A stretch of DNA of 56,060 bases from Acidobacteriota bacterium (lineage in GTDB: Bacteria; Acidobacteriota; Terriglobia; Bryobacterales; Bryobacteraceae). Numbering within the stretch: the first letter of the stretch is position 1; each line of letters starts with the position of its first letter. The notes beneath the pieces were generated by a model. It was not told the DNA's origin and did no database searches. It saw nothing but the letters and a program-made list of their open reading frames with translations. Where the stretch lies: NCBI GenBank assembly GCA_026394015.1, contig JAPKZA010000292.1, positions 1-56,060 of the forward strand, given 5' to 3'. Of this stretch, positions 36,296 to 56,060 are shown in pieces. Position numbers and translations under genes: made by a program.

Positions 36296-37204
36296 ATGGG
36301 TCAGAAAACACATCCATATGGATTCCGACTAGGGGTCACCAAAACGTGGCGTTCGCGCTGGTTCGCGAAGCAAGATTACGCCAAGTTATTGCATGAAGAC
36401 CTCAACCTCCGGGAATCCCTCACCAACCGCCTCAAAGCGGCTGGCATCAGTTCGATTGAAGTCGATCGTCCTGGGAACAAGTTGCGAATCACGATCCGCA
36501 CCTCGCGCCCCGGCATCATCATCGGACGCAAGGGTGCCGAGATTGAAAAACTGAAGTCGGATCTGGCTCAGAAGACCAACCGTGAAGTCTTTATAGACAT
36601 CCAGGAAGTCTCGAAGCCCGATCATGACGCCCAGCTCGTGTCTGAGTCGATTGCGATGCAACTCGAAAAGCGCGTCGCTTTCCGGCGGGCTATGCGGAAG
36701 GCTGTCGACAACGCAAAGCGTCTTGGCTGCAAGGGAATTAAGGTTCGGGTATCTGGGCGCTTGAACGGAGCTGAAATTGCCCGTAGCGAGTGGTATCTGG
36801 ACGGACAACTGCCGCTGCATACACTCCGAGCGGACATTGACTACGGCTTTAGTGAAGCGTTTACGACTTACGGAGTGATCGGCGTCAAGGTGTGGATCTA
36901 CAAGGGCGAGATCCTTGGTGATTTCCGGAAGGGAACCGAACCCGAACCCCGGCGCGCACCTCGTCGCGAACGCAATGATCGCAACGATCGTCCGGATCGG
37001 GGCGATCGTGGTGGTGAGCGAGGAAATCGGAGTGCCGACGGCCGTGCCCCTCAGGGCGCGCCGGCTGGTCCGCCGGTTCAGGTGGCCCCAGCAGCTGGAG
37101 AGGCCGCAGCCCGACCGATCGCCCCGCCTTTGGCTCCGGTGCAACCCACGTGGAAAGCTGAGCCGGCGGCCGATGCGCCGACCGACGTTGTCGACGGTCA
37201 GTAA
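36296..37204 (+). CDS. rpsC: 30S ribosomal protein S3 with long charged C-terminal tail
   Basis: The first 211 residues are a normal S3 with the KH motif [10 protein letters not shown] (75-84) and the [19 protein letters not shown] block; S3 lines the mRNA entry site and has helicase activity. Residues 212-302 are an extra tail, first Arg/Asp/Asn-rich ([18 protein letters not shown]) then Ala/Pro-rich to the end. Common S3 proteins have 205-240 residues, so this is long, though extended S3 tails do occur. The tail resembles the FolP tail in composition. Confidence 0.97.
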
Positions 37205-48983: not shown

Positions 48984-49028
48984 CCCGGCGCAAGAGTCAG
49001 ATCCTGATTCTTGCGCCGGGTTGTTTTG
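48984..49028 (+). terminator. Intrinsic terminator of the ribosomal supercluster
   Basis: A 17-bp stem with one G-U pair (48984-49000 with 49004-49020), CCCGGCGCAAGA on one side, and a 3-nt loop, followed by TTGTTTTG. It begins 16 bases after the rplQ stop. Confidence 0.93.
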
Positions 49029-49039
49029 TCTCAATCGCC

Positions 49040-49897
49040 GTGCCCACTATGGAAGTGACCCCTGCAGTCTTGCCGATCCGCGTTTCTGTCCTTTGCGTCA
49101 CCCGCAACCAGGACGAGAACCTGCGACGTTGCTTATCTGCGTTATCCCTTTCCACTCTGGCCAAGGAGATCGAGATTGTCGTGGTCGACTTGGCCTCCAC
49201 TGACCAGACGTCTCTGGTGGTTGAGGGAAACCTGAATCTCTCCTATCTTAGGCTGCCGAAGAACTTCGGCTGGACGAAGGCTGCGAACATCGGTCTCCGG
49301 TCGACCCAGGGTGAGAGTATCCTGTTTCTCGATCCTCGGGTTGAACTCGCCCCTGGGGCGGTCGAGATCCTGGCGAACGCTGTGGAGGAGAATGGGGTCG
49401 TTGCCGCGGCGATACCGACACTTACTGATGTCGACGGTCGTCCGTCTTCCTACCTGCGGCAACTCCCTTCGCCCCAGAATCTTCGGCCGGATCCGCAGTC
49501 CCCGGCGGATCCCACCAGCGCTGAATCGGTCGAGTACCCCGGGTGTTTTGCTCTACTGATTCGAAAGTCCTTTCTGAAGGGAATGAACTTTCTCGATCAG
49601 CGGTACGGGGAACTCTGGGCTGACGCCGAGATTGCCGCTCAAGTGAAAAGTGCGGGACGCCGGATTCTCCGTAGTCCCGACGCCGTCGGGATCCTTCACC
49701 CGGAACAACCGAAGCGATTGGACGCGGGTCTCCTTGAGTCCGATTGGCATGCCGGCGCTGCCGTATATTTGAAAAAACACCACGGTAGTGGCTTCGGCCA
49801 CAGCGTCGGTGCTACCTTTAGCTCTCTTTTTTCTGGTCGCCTCGGTTTGACCCGGCGGATCGTATCCGGTGACAAATTCGACGGAACCCAGGAGTAA
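49040..49897 (+). CDS. Family 2 glycosyltransferase
   Basis: A 285-residue GT-A-fold enzyme. VSVLCVTRNQDENLRRCLSAL, VVVDLASTDQT and NFGWTKAANIGLR are the nucleotide-binding and acceptor motifs; the metal-site DxD is degenerate (LFLDPRVEL), and ELWADAEIAAQVKSAGRRI matches the usual ED-box helix in reduced form. This resembles rhamnosyl- or galactosyl-transferase-type GT2 enzymes for surface glycans. It follows the ribosomal terminator directly and is probably transcribed on its own, or by read-through. Start: GTG 49040, or ATG 49049 with little difference. The sugar donor is not determinable. Confidence 0.82.
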   Translation: MPTMEVTPAVLPIRVSVLCVTRNQDENLRRCLSALSLSTLAKEIEIVVVDLASTDQTSLVVEGNLNLSYLRLPKNFGWTKAANIGLRSTQGESILFLDPRVELAPGAVEILANAVEENGVVAAAIPTLTDVDGRPSSYLRQLPSPQNLRPDPQSPADPTSAESVEYPGCFALLIRKSFLKGMNFLDQRYGELWADAEIAAQVKSAGRRILRSPDAVGILHPEQPKRLDAGLLESDWHAGAAVYLKKHHGSGFGHSVGATFSSLFSGRLGLTRRIVSGDKFDGTQE

Positions 49898-49913
49898 TCG
49901 AAACTGTTAGTTT

Positions 49914-49930
49914 TGCGCCGACTCGGCGCA
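49914..49930 (+). other. Perfect small inverted repeat before rpmB
   Basis: TGCGCCG-ACT-CGGCGCA, 7-bp stem with a 3-nt loop, lies 17 bases after the glycosyltransferase stop. It lacks a T-run, so it may be a weak terminator or an operator or RNA element in the rpmB leader. Confidence 0.35.
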
Positions 49931-50002
49931 ATATGTTATCCTTGGTCTTTGCGCGCACACTCTATGTGTGCCCTGCCGACCCCAAAATTTCGGAGTCTTC
50001 TT

Positions 50003-50233
50003 ATGGAATGTCCTGTAACTGGAATCAAGACGCGATTCGGAAATCGTGTTTCGCACGCGAATAACAAAACCCGCCGCACCTGGCAGCCGAATATGCAGCG
50101 CAAGCGCTTTTGGTACCCGGCCGAGAACCGCTTCATCCGCCTCACGTTGAGCGTGCAAGGGATCAAGCACATCGACAAGGTCGGCATCGACGTCGTCGTA
50201 AAGGACCTGCGCGCGAAGGGCGTTAAGTTCTAG
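50003..50233 (+). CDS. rpmB: 50S ribosomal protein L28
   Basis: A 76-residue L28 needed for late 50S assembly: CPVTGIKTRFGNRVSHANNKTRRTW (partial) and VQGIKHIDKVGID match the family. ATG 50003 is chosen since the core starts at once and GGAG lies upstream; the longer frame from 49913 is not supported. It uses Cys3 but not the full CxxC zinc set, so this is a non-zinc form. The stop interlocks with the mutM stop (CTAG). Confidence 0.95.
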   Translation: MECPVTGIKTRFGNRVSHANNKTRRTWQPNMQRKRFWYPAENRFIRLTLSVQGIKHIDKVGIDVVVKDLRAKGVKF

Positions 50234-51012
50234 ACTTTTTGACACACGGGGCAGAAGTGGGTGCCCCGTTGCGCCAAAGTGATTTTCTGGATCGGAGAGC
50301 CGCATGCTAGGCACGGCTCTCCGGCTCTGCCGTACACGCGATGTTCGCGCTGGAAGGTTCCCTGCCGACCCGCCGTATCGACGTAGTCAGAGATCGACGA
50401 GCCCCCACCTTCGATCGCCTCCTCCAGGAGAGCTCTCATTTCCTGCCACATGTGGGTCAACTGCTTTTGTGACAGGCTGGCGCTGCTGTGCGTAGGATGC
50501 ACGCTGGCGCGAAACAGCAGTTCATCTACGTAGATGTTCCCCAGTCCCCGCACGAACGTTTGCGCCAGCAGCAATGATTTGATGCCCGTTCGATGGCTCC
50601 GGGCCCGAGTCACAAACTCCCGTGACGAAATCTCCAGCGGGTCCGGGCCGAGCAGGCGTAATCCCTCCGGAAGACCCTCGCTCCAGATGACTCGCCCGAA
50701 CTGGCGGATATCTTCCAGGCTCAAAAGCAAACCGTCGAAGAGCCATTGCGCCCTTGTGTACTTATTCTGAGGTACGTCGAAGAGTAGCTTGCCGGTCATG
50801 CCGAGGTGGATCGCCAGATAGCCCCGATTCAGTTCGATTAAGACGAACTTGCCGTGGCGACGAACCTCCTTGACGAACGCCCCGTCCAGCGGGGGAGGCG
50901 TCACCCCGCGAAAGACCCGGGACGGCCAATACTTGGCTGAGGTGACGGTCGCGCCCTGCAGGCGAACCGCTAGGGCCCGGACAATTGTCTCCACCTCCGG
51001 AAGTTCAGGCAT
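50230..51012 (-). CDS. mutM: Formamidopyrimidine-DNA glycosylase (Fpg/MutM)
   Basis: A 260-residue base-excision repair enzyme that removes 8-oxoguanine and formamidopyrimidines. After start methionine, the catalytic Pro2 and Glu3 (MPELPEVET) are present. The conserved Asn in GLGNIYVDE and the C-terminal zinc finger, Cys234, Cys237, Cys254 and Cys257, complete the active form. Preceded at three bases by a Rieske protein, with which it forms an operon; converges on rpmB. Confidence 0.97.
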   Translation of the reverse strand: MPELPEVETIVRALAVRLQGATVTSAKYWPSRVFRGVTPPPLDGAFVKEVRRHGKFVLIELNRGYLAIHLGMTGKLLFDVPQNKYTRAQWLFDGLLLSLEDIRQFGRVIWSEGLPEGLRLLGPDPLEISSREFVTRARSHRTGIKSLLLAQTFVRGLGNIYVDELLFRASVHPTHSSASLSQKQLTHMWQEMRALLEEAIEGGGSSISDYVDTAGRQGTFQREHRVYGRAGEPCLACGSPIQKITLAQRGTHFCPVCQKV

Positions 51013-51015
51013 CGT

Positions 51016-51321
51016 CTACGGAAGCTCCAATCGGATTTCGTCGCCCACGATCTCCACCTCGTAGGTGCGCAGTACAATGGCAGGGTTGAAATCGCACTTC
51101 CCTGTCGTACAGTCAAATTCCCATCCATGCCAAGGGCACGCCAACATGTTGTCGTGGAGGGCCCCCATGGCGAGCGGACCACCTAGATGCGGGCACCGAT
51201 TATCCACGGCATACAGCTTTCCACCCCGATTGCACACCGCCACCTCGGTCGCCCCGGACTTCACCAAAATCACTCCGCCTGGCTTTACATCACCGGCCGA
51301 CCCTACGCGCACAAAGGACAT
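51016..51321 (-). CDS. Small Rieske [2Fe-2S] protein, NirD/ferredoxin-like
   Basis: A 101-residue Rieske-domain protein. Cluster ligands Cys43 and His45 (CPHLGGPL) and Cys62 and His65 (CPWHGWEFD) are complete. Proteins of this size usually act as electron carriers for oxygenases or nitrite reductase, none of which is seen nearby. It shares its operon with mutM; the pairing of a redox protein with an oxidative-damage repair gene may be functional or accidental. Confidence 0.92.
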   Translation of the reverse strand: MSFVRVGSAGDVKPGGVILVKSGATEVAVCNRGGKLYAVDNRCPHLGGPLAMGALHDNMLACPWHGWEFDCTTGKCDFNPAIVLRTYEVEIVGDEIRLELP

Positions 51322-51337
51322 ATAGAATTAACCTACC
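51322..51337. promoter_or_regulatory. 16-bp divergent promoter gap
   Basis: The start codons of the Rieske gene (minus) and the sugar-binding lipoprotein gene (plus) are only 16 bp apart. TAGAAT (51323-51328, plus) ends nine bases before ATG 51338; TAGGTT (51335-51330, minus) ends eight bases before ATG 51321. The boxes face each other and no good -35 could be assigned. Confidence 0.35.
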
Positions 51338-52300
51338 ATGCGTACTCTTCTGTTCTTTTGCTTCGTTCTCACTCTCGCCCCAAGCTGCAACCGGTCGAAG
51401 GACAAAGTCATCGGTGTCGTGCCCAAAGGTGCCGGTCACGTCTTCTGGCTAACGGTCAACGCCGGAGCGGAGAAGGCCGCCCAGGAATCCGGATACACCG
51501 TCGAATGGAACGCACCAACGCTGGAAGTGGACTCGACCCGCCAGAAGGACATCATCGACTCCATGATCACCCGCCGTCTAGACGGTATCGCCCTTGCCCC
51601 CGTGGACCGCAGAGCGCTCGCCGGTACGGTTGACCGGGCCACGGCAGCCGGCATTCCCATCGCCGTCTTCGATTCCGACGTCGATACGCCCAATCGGCTC
51701 ACCTACGTCGCCACGGATAATCGCGCGGGCGGTCGCCTCGCCGCCCGACGCATGGGCGAAATTCTACAGGGCAAGGGGAAGGTCGCGGTCATCGGATTCA
51801 TGCCCGGCTCCGCCTCCACCATGGACCGCGAGGACGGCTTTCGCGAGGAGATCCTCGCTTCCTTCCCGGGCATCCAGATCGTCGTCATGACTTACGGCAT
51901 GGCGGATCGCGCCAAGTCGATGGCTGTCACCGAAAACGCTCTCACGGCCCACCCCGACCTGGCCGGTGTATTCGCGGATAACGAATCCAGCGCGGCCGGG
52001 GCATTGCAGGCCATCAAAAGCCGTCAAGCCAGACAGGTGAAGTTCATAGCCTTCGACGCCAACGAACAGTTCATCGTTGATCTCCGCGCGGGCTGGATTG
52101 ATGCCCTCGTCCTGCAGGATCCTTACCGAATGGGGTACGACTCCGTAAAGGCGATCACAACAAAGCTCAACGGCGGGACCCCCGCTCCTCGTGCTGACCT
52201 CCCGGCGACTCTCGTCACCCTGGCCAACATCGATTCGCCACAGATCCCGCCGCAGATTTTACCCGCCTTTCAGCGTCAGCTTACCCAGGCAACCCACTAG
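51338..52300 (+). CDS. Sugar-binding periplasmic lipoprotein (RbsB/type I ABC binding protein-like)
   Basis: A 320-residue protein of the periplasmic binding protein type 1 family, similar to ribose/xylose-binding proteins: PKGAGHVFWLTVNAGAEKAA, DGIALAPVDRRAL and AVFDSDVD. A signal peptide ends in APSC, so Cys17 is the likely lipid-anchored residue. The ATPase and permease genes that normally accompany it are absent here, so it is an orphan binding protein; it may use distant transporters or act as a sensor. Its stop interlocks with that of folP (CTAG). Confidence 0.88.
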   Translation: MRTLLFFCFVLTLAPSCNRSKDKVIGVVPKGAGHVFWLTVNAGAEKAAQESGYTVEWNAPTLEVDSTRQKDIIDSMITRRLDGIALAPVDRRALAGTVDRATAAGIPIAVFDSDVDTPNRLTYVATDNRAGGRLAARRMGEILQGKGKVAVIGFMPGSASTMDREDGFREEILASFPGIQIVVMTYGMADRAKSMAVTENALTAHPDLAGVFADNESSAAGALQAIKSRQARQVKFIAFDANEQFIVDLRAGWIDALVLQDPYRMGYDSVKAITTKLNGGTPAPRADLPATLVTLANIDSPQIPPQILPAFQRQLTQATH

Positions 52301-54033
52301 TCGCGCCGGAATCCGCCCGGCTTCGGAAAGCGCGGTCGAAACGGCCGATCTCCCGGACCGTCACCCGACGGACGCGGTCGAAACGGTCGATCCCCACCCT
52401 GAGGCCGATCGCCACCGTACGGAGGACGCGCCGGCCGATCTCCCCCGCCACCATACGGCGGTCTGGACGGTCGGTCCCCGCCGAAAGGTGGACGAGAGGG
52501 CCGATCCCCGCCATAGGGTGGCCGCGCAGGCCGGTCGCCATAGGACGGCCGATCCCGATCGCCACCGCCACCGCGATAGGGCGGCCGATCCCCGCCCTGG
52601 GGCCGGTCGCCTCCATATGGTGGACGTGACGGCCGATCACCGTAACTCGGACGCTGCGGCCGATCTCCGCCCCCACCGCCATACGACGGGCGATCGCTGC
52701 CATACGATGACCGCTGGGGGCGATCTCCGCCTCCGCCGCCGTAGGAAGGCCGGTCCCGATCTCCACCGCCGCGATACGGCGGACGATCTCCTCCTTGCGG
52801 ACGATCTCCTCCGTAAGACGGTCGCTTCACATAGGGCCGGTCGCCCCCGCCGCCGCCTTGGTAGGGCGGTCGGTCGCCGCCACGGTCGCCACCACCCTGA
52901 TACGGAGGCCGATCCCCGTAAAGTGGTCGCTTCATATAGGGTCGATCGCCTCCGCCCCGATCCTCGCGCGGAGGTCGGTCATCGCGCACAGGCCGATCGT
53001 CGCGCGAAGGCCGATCGTCAAACGACCGCTCCTCCGCCGCCGGTGAGGCGTCCGTCGTCGGCGCTGCCGCCGGTCGGAACTCCCGCGGGCCGCGCACATC
53101 CGACGCTTCGCCCAGACCATAAGGTCGTCGCTCGGAAGGCCGCACAAACAGCCGCTTTTCCTTGTGCTCTTTGATCTCTTCCGGACCATTCCGCAGCAGC
53201 GCATCAGCGGTCTGCACCGCGCACAAAAGAGCCGCTACCTTATGTACCCGCACCATGTGCGCGCCCTGCAAAATCGCGCCGGTAATCGCCGCCGCAGTCG
53301 CAAAATCCTGCTGTAAACTGTCGTTCAGCTTCTGGCCGAGAAACGCCTTCCGCGACGCGCCCACCATGATCGGCATGTCCAACTCGCGCAACTTGCCCAG
53401 CCGCGCCAAAATCTCGTAGTTCTGGTCGCCGCGCTTCCCGAATCCTAAGCCCGGGTCGATGATGATCTTACCCCGATCGACCAGCGCCTTCTGCGCCCGA
53501 TTCACGCTGTTTTCGAGATCACTCAGCACCGATTCGCTCGGGTGCGTCATGTTTCCCAGCTTGGCCCAAGTCTCCGGCGTGCCTCGCATGTGGTTCAAAA
53601 TCAAACCCGCATCCTGCGATGCCACCACGTTCGCCACTTTTGGATCCAGCGTCAGATTCGACGGATCGTTGATGAAAGCCACGCCGTACTCGAGCGCCTT
53701 CTCCGCAACACCGCTCTTGTAGGTATCGACCGAGATCGGAATCATCAGCTTCCCTTCGAGCTTTTTGAGTACCGGAATCAACCGCCGCAACTCCTCTGCT
53801 TCGCTCACCGGCACCGCGCCCGGCTTGGTCGACTCCGCGCCGATATCGATGATGTCGGCACCCTGCGCCTCCAACTCCAGTGCGCGGGCCACGGCCCGAT
53901 CCGGATCGCTGAACCGCCCTCCGTCGGAGAAGCTATCGGGCGTGACGTTCAGCACCCCCATAATCAATGTGCGGTCGCCGAACTGCAACTCGTAACCGCG
54001 AACTTTCATCAAATACCGTTTTGGGCGGATCAT
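52297..54033 (-). CDS. folP: Dihydropteroate synthase with a 296-residue low-complexity tail
   Basis: Residues 11-282 are a DHPS (TIM barrel) that makes dihydropteroate in folate synthesis. Visible: [11 protein letters not shown] (29-39), GAESTKPGA (65-73), HMRGTP (148-153), DPGLGFGK (193-200) and GASRKAFLG (225-233). Oddities: INDPSN (121-126) instead of IND(V)SG and HKV at 264-266 where most have HDV. From about residue 283 to 578 the chain is a low-complexity tail, Lys/Arg/Pro-rich first, then about two dozen DRP repeats with Gly, Tyr and Arg, including a duplicated segment around [17 protein letters not shown]. Typical DHPS has 270-300 residues. ATG 54033 overlaps the tyrS stop (ATGA) and is preferred over the start at 54051. 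The whole frame is open without a stop, so the tail is translated unless the sequence is wrong. Confidence 0.9.
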
Positions 54034-55202
54034 CCTTGTACCTTCTTCCACTTCTTGCCTAACCGCAATACATAACTACCCGGGAACTCCAGCGTGACCA
54101 TTTCCGAAACCCGAGCGCCGTCCACTTCAAGCGCTCCTTCTTTGATCTTCCGCTGTGCTTCGCTCCCTGAAGCCGCCAGCCCGCACCGCACGAGTAACTT
54201 GTCTACCCGCAATCCTGTCTCTGTCACCGCGTAAACTTCGAGTTCCGTTGGCACTGAGCCCTGCGAAACCACACGGGTCCACTCTTCCGCCGCCCGTTCG
54301 GCGTCGGCACGAGAATGGAAATCAGACACGATCAACCGTGCCAGTTCCATCTTCGTCTCTTTCGGGTGGGCCAACCGCAGCTGTTGAATCTCACTCCCCG
54401 TCATATCGGTGAGCAGCTCGTAGTATCGGAACATTAGATCGTCAGGAATCGACATCAACTTCTGGAACATCACCGGAGCCGACTCGGTAATCCCAACGTA
54501 GTTGTTCTTCGACTTCGACATCTTTTCGACGCCGTCCAAGCCTTCCAGCAGCGGCACCGTCCCCACAATCTGGGGTGGTTGCCCGTAGGCCCGTTGCAAC
54601 TCCCTGCCCACCAGCAGGTTAAATTTTTGATCGTTGCCGCCCAACTCGACGTCGCACTTCATCATGACGGAGTCGTATCCCTGGGCCAGCGGATATAAAA
54701 ATTCATGCACCGAAATCGGCGTATTGGAGGCGTAGCGTTTGGAGAAATCGTCGCGCTCTAAGATCCGCGCGACGGTGTAGTGCGAACAAAGCCGGACCAT
54801 CTCCTCGAAGGACAGTGGCTCGAGCCACTTGCTGTTGAATTCGATCACCGTTTTTTCCGGGTCGAGAATCTTGAACACCTGAGTCTTGTAGGTCTCGGCG
54901 TTGGCGTTGATTTCGTCCCGCGTCATCGGTGGGCGCATGGCATTCCGGCCCGACGGATCGCCGATCAAGCCCGTCATGTCTCCAATCAGAAACGTGACGG
55001 TATGGCCTAAATCCTGGAAATGCTTCATCTTACGAATCAGCACGGTATGGCCGAGATGCAGATCAGGCGCTGTCGGATCAAAGCCGGTTTTTACGCGTAA
55101 AGGGCGACCCAGCTTGAGTCGCTCGCGGAGATCCTCTTCTCGGATCAGCTCCGCCATGCCTTTTCTCAGATAGGCGATCTGCTCTTCAATTGTCAAAGCC
55201 AT
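54030..55202 (-). CDS. tyrS: Tyrosine-tRNA ligase
   Basis: A 390-residue class I synthetase. HLGH (49-52) is the HIGH motif, KMSKS is at 227-231, and the C-terminus (about 330-390) is an S4-like domain. The sequence resembles the TyrZ-type form. It starts an operon with folP, overlapped by four bases. A T-box was not seen upstream. Confidence 0.97.
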
Positions 55203-55447
55203 TCCAATCTTCTAGGATCCGCGAAGTCGCGAAAAAGAAGCCCTCATTAACAATGGCACTCCCGCTCGGCGTTGTCCACCCCGATCCCCTGGCAAATCAA
55301 CACCCATGGACCACGCGAAGGACCTCTACCCGGTGCGAAGCAGGAACAGTAGGCCGCTCATCGCAAGCGTCCGTAGTCCTAGACTATACGGAAGGCCGAT
55401 CTCCGGCTACACCATATCGTTGCACCCGTCCCAAACCAACAAGTAGT
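55203..55447. other. Intergenic, no gene recognised
   Basis: Holds the tyrS promoter region on the minus strand, and no supported ORF. TATAGT-like and TTAATG-like boxes exist on the minus strand but without convincing -35 partners. Confidence 0.3.
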
Positions 55448-55451
55448 TGGT
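55435..55451 (-). other. Inverted repeat at the tRNA 3' end
   Basis: ACCAAC-AAGTA-GTTGGT, a 6-bp stem that includes the CCA end of the tRNA-Met fragment. It could be a terminator for the former tRNA transcript or a recombinase arm site. Confidence 0.3.
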
Positions 55452-55492
55452 TGCGGCGGCATGATTTGAACATGCGACCTTTTGGTTATGAG
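55448..55492 (-). tRNA. 3' fragment of tRNA-Met(CAT), probable integration (att) site
   Basis: On the minus strand the sequence runs from the anticodon loop CTCATAA through a variable loop AGGTC, a perfect T-arm (GCATG-TTCAAAT-CATGC), the 3' acceptor strand CGCCGCA, discriminator A and an encoded CCA. It ends at the anticodon loop: the 5' side (GATTCTCGTCACG) cannot pair with CCAAA and shows no D-arm or TGCGGCG acceptor strand. So only the 3' 45 bases remain. Such fragments are what site-specific integrases leave when elements insert into tRNA genes. Confidence 0.75.
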
Positions 55493-55657
55493 CGTGACGA
55501 GAATCGGTAACTGAAGGAAAAGAAAAGCACGAGTGGCAACTCAAAGAGCCTTCAGGAACTCTCGGGAACGCTTATTGGGAGTCCAATGGGAGTCTGGCGG
55601 CGGGGTGTCCACGCCGCCGAACAAACGCTGCCGATGCGGTTGAGTATGCAGATGGGA
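55493..55657. other. Probable remnant of an inserted element, no gene seen
   Basis: Between the tRNA fragment and the transposase frame. A short direct repetition, GGGAGTC, occurs twice around 55577-55595. No complete gene is visible. Confidence 0.25.
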
Positions 55658-56060
55658 CTAAGCACGGCGGCACGCGGTGGAGCAGGAAGGCGGTCTTATG
55701 AATTCCCGAGCCGCTTGTCTTCTCGGACAAGCATCTGAAAGAATGGTCATCCTTTGCAGCTTTTCGATTTCTTGGAGGATGTATGAGCTTTCAACCTTCG
55801 GGAGGTAAAGCCCCACGACCGCTTCGAGCTTTTCGGCGAAATGAGGATCATTGCTGACCTTGAAGGACTCGGACCGATGGGGCTTGAGTCCGTGGGCCCG
55901 CCATATTCGGAGAACGCTGGTATCGCTGATCCCGACCTCGTTCGCCATGCTGCGAGTGCTCCAGTGCGTGGCGTGGACGGGCTTTTCGAGGGTGGTCAGC
56001 CGGACCACTTCGGTGACTTTGTCGGGGGCGATCGATGGCAACCGTCCCGGGCGTGGAGCA
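55658..56060 (-). pseudogene. IS630-family transposase fragment, continues beyond window
   Basis: The minus-strand frame runs to the window edge (upstream codons read APRPGR before LPSIAPDK, so TTG 56041 is not the true start). RLTTLEKPVHATHWSTRSMA and SDTSVLRIWRAHGLKPHR match the N-terminal helix-turn-helix of IS630-type DDE transposases. Homology ends near 55802, just after VVGLYL; the expected DEKSQ-type catalytic block is missing, replaced by 48 unrelated residues. So the element is truncated and inactive on its own. The 5' end is outside the window. Confidence 0.8.

Follow-up and report, generated by a model that had tools for sequence, protein, structure and literature searches.

A long, compositionally biased C-terminal tail on the dihydropteroate synthase of a genus of Bryobacteraceae: purifying selection and a putative recruitment role

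The window analyzed here is the whole stretch of 56,060 nucleotides, which is contig C366 of its genome. On its minus strand lies folP (52297-54033), which runs from an ATG at 54033 to a stop codon at 52297-52299 and specifies a dihydropteroate synthase (DHPS) of 578 amino acids with a C-terminal tail; an alternative GTG start located 18 bases further upstream would yield a protein of 584 residues. Immediately upstream on the same strand is tyrS (54030-55202), a tyrosyl-tRNA synthetase gene by Pfam, the stop codon of which overlaps the folP ATG by 4 bases. This overlap was present at all 17 genus loci having upstream flank, that of the window included. A gene for a periplasmic binding protein (Peripla_BP_4) on the plus strand (51338-52300) converges on folP, and its end overlaps the folP stop codon. 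No Rfam match was obtained in the region 49000-56060.

DHPS is a textbook enzyme and the target of the sulfonamides, and is usually regarded as a compact protein of about 280 residues. The DHPS core of the FolP examined here comprises residues 1-286 (53176-54033, minus strand). Pfam Pterin_bind (PF00809) was recognized at residues 25-264 (53242-53961) with 247 bits against a cut-off of 25.5, and the NCBIfam model for DHPS, TIGR01496, at residues 24-278 with 270 bits against a cut-off of 162.6. In an alignment of 17 rows, most columns of the FolP signature motifs (an 18-residue stretch, DPGxGFGK, SRK, and RVH) were invariant and the remaining ones were nearly invariant or unlisted. Judged by the domain cut-offs and the signature motifs the protein is a dihydropteroate synthase, with catalysis predicted. 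It is the only DHPS-sized Pterin_bind match in its genome, which is 97 % complete. As the one other Pterin_bind match sits inside a frame of 1284 residues, taken from its size alone to be methionine synthase, the window FolP appears to be the sole DHPS of its genome, with putative catalytic activity. Of the solved sequences, 44 matched FolP, bifunctional HPPK-DHPS proteins among them; the best stretches all ended at or before residue 284, so that these matches cover the core and none of them the tail.

Residues 287-578 (52300-53175, minus strand) form a low-complexity extension of the core. Gly, Pro, Arg, and Asp make up 71 % of it, Tyr and Phe 8.9 %, and Ile, Leu, Val, and Met 3.1 %; Cys and Trp are absent and the net charge is +19. 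The earlier note on this DNA had described a tail of 296 residues with about two dozen DRP units and RGG-like patches. The long tail is real and measures 292 residues as cut here, and the DRP units were counted at 24, whereas 5000 shuffled tails averaged 1.25 and never exceeded 6. Over the same 292 residues, 18 GDRP units and 10 Pro-Pro pairs were found. The RGG-like patches, present as 4 RGG and 5 RG, are too few for the dense RGG/RG repeats of an RGG box and describe the tail weakly. The aromatic residues are spaced more evenly than in shuffles (z of -3.3 in the window tail), and z was negative, from -0.7 to -3.5, in all 22 FolP tails that could be tested among 24. Even spacing of aromatics is typical of condensate-forming sequences. 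In AlphaFold2, using the 17-row alignment, pLDDT was near 90 in most core blocks and below 50 over most of the tail, with short tail stretches of 50-70. The low values are consistent with disorder and, together with the net positive charge and the presence of Tyr and Phe, they bear out the earlier reading of the composition as one of the disordered type.

Searches with the tail returned little. The window tail and the tails of two relatives had no Pfam match at E values up to 10, and a fusion with a known domain was rejected on this basis; among solved structures, one match at chance level (E 7.6) was obtained. When its own genome was searched with the tail (E up to 10), the tail itself was the only match, a result in which the composition correction of HMMER may mask similar tails. 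Tandem Repeats Finder reported a single array of 3.5 copies of 18 bases in the tail DNA, and four Gly codons and five different Arg codons are intermixed across the repeats. As this one short array goes together with mixed codons, the tail repeats are, to judge by codon usage, kept at the level of the protein and scrambled in the DNA. A DNA tandem repeat as the source of the tail was rejected because only one short array is present. Third-position G+C was lower in the tail (0.60) than in the core (0.78), and dS was higher in the tail in 12 of 13 species pairs, though both are parts of one gene.

FolP was matched in 17 of the 18 other genomes of the genus, the exception (G007) being 62 % complete, and all 18 genus genomes in which folP was found, the window included, carry the tailed form. 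In 17 of these 18, the frame runs uninterrupted into a tail of 181-293 amino acids, although in G004 the first 26 residues of the protein are lost to a contig break. In G018, folP breaks off where its contig ends, and a tail piece that matches is present at the terminus of a second contig. The domain matches and the 17 frames that run on into the tail confirm the claim of a DHPS fused to low-complexity sequence in a single frame. Of the two observations that the earlier note named as fatal to its proposal, FolPs of about 280 residues with a stop codon at that point are absent from these genus genomes and common outside the genus, while a sequencing or assembly error merging two genes fails in the genus, where separate assemblies agree on the tail. 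As the tail is found in all 18 genus genomes with folP, assembly error is excluded.

For 13 species pairs, dN/dS was 0.03-0.15 in the tail and 0.03-0.09 in the core, values in which the amino-acid alignment of repeats biases dN downward and gap-rich pairs carry less weight. In the pair L013/L019, the tails of which align without gaps, substitutions at the three codon positions numbered 7, 4, and 77, and dN/dS was 0.04. The FolP tail is coding and under purifying selection as a protein. The same counts indicate that the antisense frames are not under selection, and an antisense gene is excluded because substitutions concentrate at the third codon position as read in folP. Long open frames do exist on the opposite strand (e.g., 52191-53174), but with separate assemblies in agreement and substitutions falling at that third position, the chance that the tail is an assembly or frame artefact, or that an antisense open reading frame is the real gene, is negligible.

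Conservation is unevenly distributed along the tail. The first 35 residues (53071-53175, minus strand) are comparatively well conserved in the nine FolPs of branch A of the genus, with a mean column identity of 0.72 versus 0.38 for the whole tail. They are followed by a variable repeat region (52354-53070, minus strand) of GDRP, RPPYGG, and SYGG units, the length and arrangement of which vary by species. The last 16 tail residues (52300-52347, minus strand), as delimited in the branch-A tail alignment, ranked second of 373 windows in branch A, where an overlapping window came first, and first of 307 in branch B. Of 16 representatives that have a long tail and share less than 80 % core identity, 11 contain an RPP-type motif (RPP preceded by L, V, I, M, T, H, N, or A), a class defined after viewing the tails, that begins 20-38 residues past the core, against a mean of 0.48 and a maximum of 4 when the first 60 residues were shuffled in 5000 rounds. 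Six rows had been removed before counting, five as duplicates and the sixth because a contig end truncates it. A narrower motif, with only L, V, I, or M ahead of RPP and at any position of the tail, was present in 8 of the 16 (shuffle mean 1.35, maximum 8, 2000 rounds). Among nine tails of 33-69 residues the positioned motif occurred in three (shuffle mean 0.40, maximum 4), a weak signal. At tail position 20-38 it is absent in branch A of the genus, the window included. The picture suggested by these alignments is that of a linker, a putative docking motif, a variable repeat region, and a conserved basic end.

Most other genera of the family that were read have no long FolP tail, which indicates that DHPS does not need one. 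A search of the family gave a FolP match in 136 of 150 genomes, and at least 22 of these 136 carry R/P/G-rich tails of 70 residues or more, as found by examining every listed match with an open frame of at least 350 residues and including one genome (G023) with a frame interrupted by N. A further genome (G476) has a long FolP tail of another kind that is weakly charged. Tails of the R/P/G-rich type, 75-471 residues long, recur in several lineages of the family. Among 33 tails of at least 70 amino acids, two of which (L343 and L347) are incomplete because the sequence read for them stops within the tail, 32 have a net charge of +7 to +31, the exception being that of G476 (+2), and 32 consist for 42-81 % of Gly, Pro, Arg, and Asp. 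Short FolP ends of 15-69 amino acids were present in 22 of 78 representatives. On a tree of 62 cores, the long-tail label changes seven times, with four changes forced by well-supported branches, and six times without the row of G018, which a contig end truncates. Nine changes were obtained on a quick tree of 113 rows with long branches and weak support, and none of these counts separates gain from loss. Absent from the 62-row tree are 13 loci missed by motif-based extraction, as well as L189, L192, L194, L200, and L202; for the later set of loci, BLAST-based extraction was used instead. Beyond the family, no long FolP tail was seen at 47 loci from other families of the phylum (27 best-matching and 20 chosen for long open frames, from the best part of 382 matching genomes), nor was such a tail seen in 50 FolPs from other phyla (L094-L143, phylum according to the record name). 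One of the latter (L140, 6001-7239, plus strand), in a metagenome-assembled genome titled Chloroflexi, is a DHPS-FolB fusion of 413 residues. The FolP tail of another record, titled Nevskia soli (L080, NZ_CAJCHS010000180.1), looks the same as that of the family member G517, and the organism label looks wrong.

Four genomes of the family (G503, G541, G563, and G515) have two DHPS-type genes each, one with a long R/P/G tail (L347, L349, L348, and L352) and one without (L355, L357, L356, and L358). The tailed gene of G504 (L345) scored 104 bits against part of the Pfam profile and the tail-less copy of G503 (L355) 276 bits; the tail may thus sit on a divergent paralogue in the G503/G504 branch.

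The occurrence of similar sequences elsewhere in the proteome was examined in samples of 1.2 Mb from G017 (940 genes), 0.4 Mb each from G504 (310 genes) and G040 (266 genes), and the window (55 genes). Genes were called by codon usage, and one stretch each of G017 and G504 was chosen to include FolP. The highest share of R+G+P+D over 80 residues belonged to FolP in G017 (0.80), G504 (0.85), and the window (0.83). Across the four samples, 18 genes besides FolP reach 52 % or more, of which Pfam names 12 and leaves six without a match. RNA proteins account for three of the 12 named carriers (uS3, RNase E/G, and PNPase), and only uS3 and PNPase carry the stretch as a C-terminal tail, as FolP does; RNase E/G of five genomes has similar R/G/P/D patches. 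Other named carriers are a SWIM zinc-finger protein, two HlyD-type proteins, and a secretin. In the remaining five (GAF/SpoIIE, phosphoglucomutase, glyoxalase, DUF1501, and sulfatase), the stretch is found close to the first start and a long way upstream of the first domain, which makes an over-extended start likely. The SWIM zinc-finger protein of G017 (L263, 6745-7959, minus strand; 405 residues) has an N-terminal low-complexity region rich in Gly, Asn, and Arg. In two genus genomes, the 12 pseudouridine synthase frames listed span 195-360 amino acids and the best DEAD-box match measures 431 amino acids in each, with other DEAD-family frames of 362-1351. A proteome-wide fashion for tails is unsupported by the sampled genes. 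The C-terminal tails of uS3 and PNPase provide modest, circumstantial support for a link of the FolP tail with RNA or ribosomes.

The uS3 gene of the window (36296-37201, plus strand) specifies a tail of about 95 residues rich in Arg, Asp, Gly, and Pro. As read at 30 loci of the order (L264-L293), the uS3 tail has near its end a 12-residue motif conserved in the genus (g1), and FRPPLA, APVRPPLVG, APVKPPLIG, or the like in family f3. Many FolP tails contain PMRPPLARP, AVRPPVKP, or similar sequences, and PVRPPVV occurs in RNase E/G of one genome (G017) among five. The uS3 tail thus resembles that of FolP in being rich in Arg, Asp, and Gly with RPP-like motifs near the end, its disorder being judged from composition only and homology between the two not being established; unlike the FolP tail, it is also present in relatives in which FolP has none. 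The likeness of the motifs makes a partner common to both tails possible. No RPP motif was found, forward or as a reversed control, in the last 130 residues of the 940, 266, 310, and 55 sampled genes, a limit that also missed the known motif of the G504 FolP, and a general RPP docking motif was rejected for want of matches in these C-tails. When the collected DNA was scanned in all frames, 30 distinct contexts of the RPP motif were obtained, of which 15 belong to FolP and one to uS3, the remaining 14 lying in further frames.

We tentatively favor, at somewhat short of an even chance, a genuine DHPS extended at its C-terminus by a long disordered tail for recruitment, with putative docking and polyanion contacts. 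In this view, a partner would be bound by the RPP-type motif and the basic end. The Arg, Tyr, and Phe residues that recur along the tail would add weak, multivalent contacts to polyanions, the likeliest being RNA, ribosomes, or RNA-processing bodies; the tail would thereby concentrate or position FolP and leave its chemistry unchanged. Retention in the genus, low dN/dS, low pLDDT, and positive charge were counted in its favor, as were the positioned motif, the conserved end, the top R/G/P/D share, the C-tails of uS3 and PNPase, and the single DHPS-sized match. Counted against it were the low RGG content, the lack of a tail in most other genera, the presence of only three RNA proteins among the 12 named carriers, and a motif that was defined post hoc and is absent at that position in branch A, to which the window belongs. 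The most probable purpose of the tail would be to bind RNA, ribosomes, or a condensate, for which the support is circumstantial. That a dedicated disordered tail specifically tethers FolP to ribosomes or RNA-processing bodies, through a type of docking motif shared with uS3, is doubtful.

The near-fixed distance of the motif from the core and the conserved terminus, both of which resemble docking sites, combined with repeats that differ in length and order, would also suit a protein-protein scaffold in which the RPP-type motif and the basic end recruit a folate-pathway enzyme, a chaperone, or a membrane partner and the repeats act as a spacer, RNA being uninvolved. This is unlikely, albeit a serious contender: no partner is known, the charge of +7 or more in 32 of 33 tails exceeds the need of a spacer, and the HPPK frames of three of the four genus genomes, at 161-181 amino acids, are too short to accommodate a long tail. 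In the fourth, HPPK lies in a frame of 371 residues; a wider tailed folate complex has no support for the same reason. The tail could instead tune the amount, solubility, or stability of FolP as an entropic bristle, through Pro-Pro pausing, or as a protease handle, in the absence of a specific partner. The 10 Pro-Pro pairs of the window tail and the retention of composition while order turns over agree with such tuning, which leaves the conserved 16-residue ends and the positioned motif unexplained and is less probable than either the recruitment tail favored above or a scaffold. Near-neutral growth of low-complexity sequence after loss of a stop codon, tolerated as harmless, is very improbable. 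It would account for the variable tail lengths, for at least six label changes on the 62-core tree (nine on the larger, weakly supported one), and for the short ends of 15-69 amino acids in 22 of 78 representatives, but not for dN/dS values of 0.03-0.15, with 0.04 in the gapless pair despite alignment bias, nor for a tail in all 18 genus genomes with folP and a positioned motif.

A match to FolB (PF02152) was lacking in the four genus genomes searched (G000, G017, G004, and G014), all of which have HPPK; the FolB step may be performed by another enzyme in these genomes. Folate supply is needed for formyl-methionine, purines, and thymidylate. If tethering to ribosomes or RNA bodies were true, the family would have a physical link between folate supply and translation. 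With a long disordered tail that is under selection in the genus and recurs in a family of Acidobacteriota, FolP would be unusual among core metabolic enzymes in having a conserved disordered element for recruitment. The tail hints that this basic enzyme may have a partner or a location yet to be recognized. The tailed, tail-less, and two-copy genomes offer a natural comparison for the function of disordered tails in bacteria.

In conclusion, the observation that a conserved enzyme carries a lineage-specific, selected disordered tail is right, and firmer than the earlier note had grounds to expect, and the functional reading that we infer from it is plausible. The earlier note knew of no described case in a bacterial FolP, which agrees with full-text searches among open-licence papers, where no description of a DHPS with a disordered tail was found. 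With known DHPS proteins (TIGR01496, PF00809) the present one shares the core domain, the signature motifs, and a single DHPS-sized gene, and it differs from the solved ones in having a tail. In the RNA degradosome, the nuclease RNase E is reported to have a region, disordered for the most part, to which partners are recruited, the metabolic enzyme enolase among them (PMC4435900), by way of short linear motifs (PMC11964227); as described there, the nuclease bears the scaffold, whereas here the metabolic enzyme FolP bears the disordered region. The nearest precedent, by analogy, would be the disordered region of Rho. In Bacteroides thetaiotaomicron, this highly conserved protein has an intrinsically disordered region, Rho of Clostridium symbiosum contains YQSRGD repeats, and phase separation has been reported for Rho (PMC10284900). 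The FolP tail is of the same type in being long, compositionally biased, without predicted structure, attached to a conserved protein, and variable between lineages, and in both proteins the disordered region is lineage-variable and biased. Rho already binds RNA, its region is internal, and its phase separation has been reported, whereas FolP is a metabolic enzyme with a C-terminal tail known from sequence and prediction.
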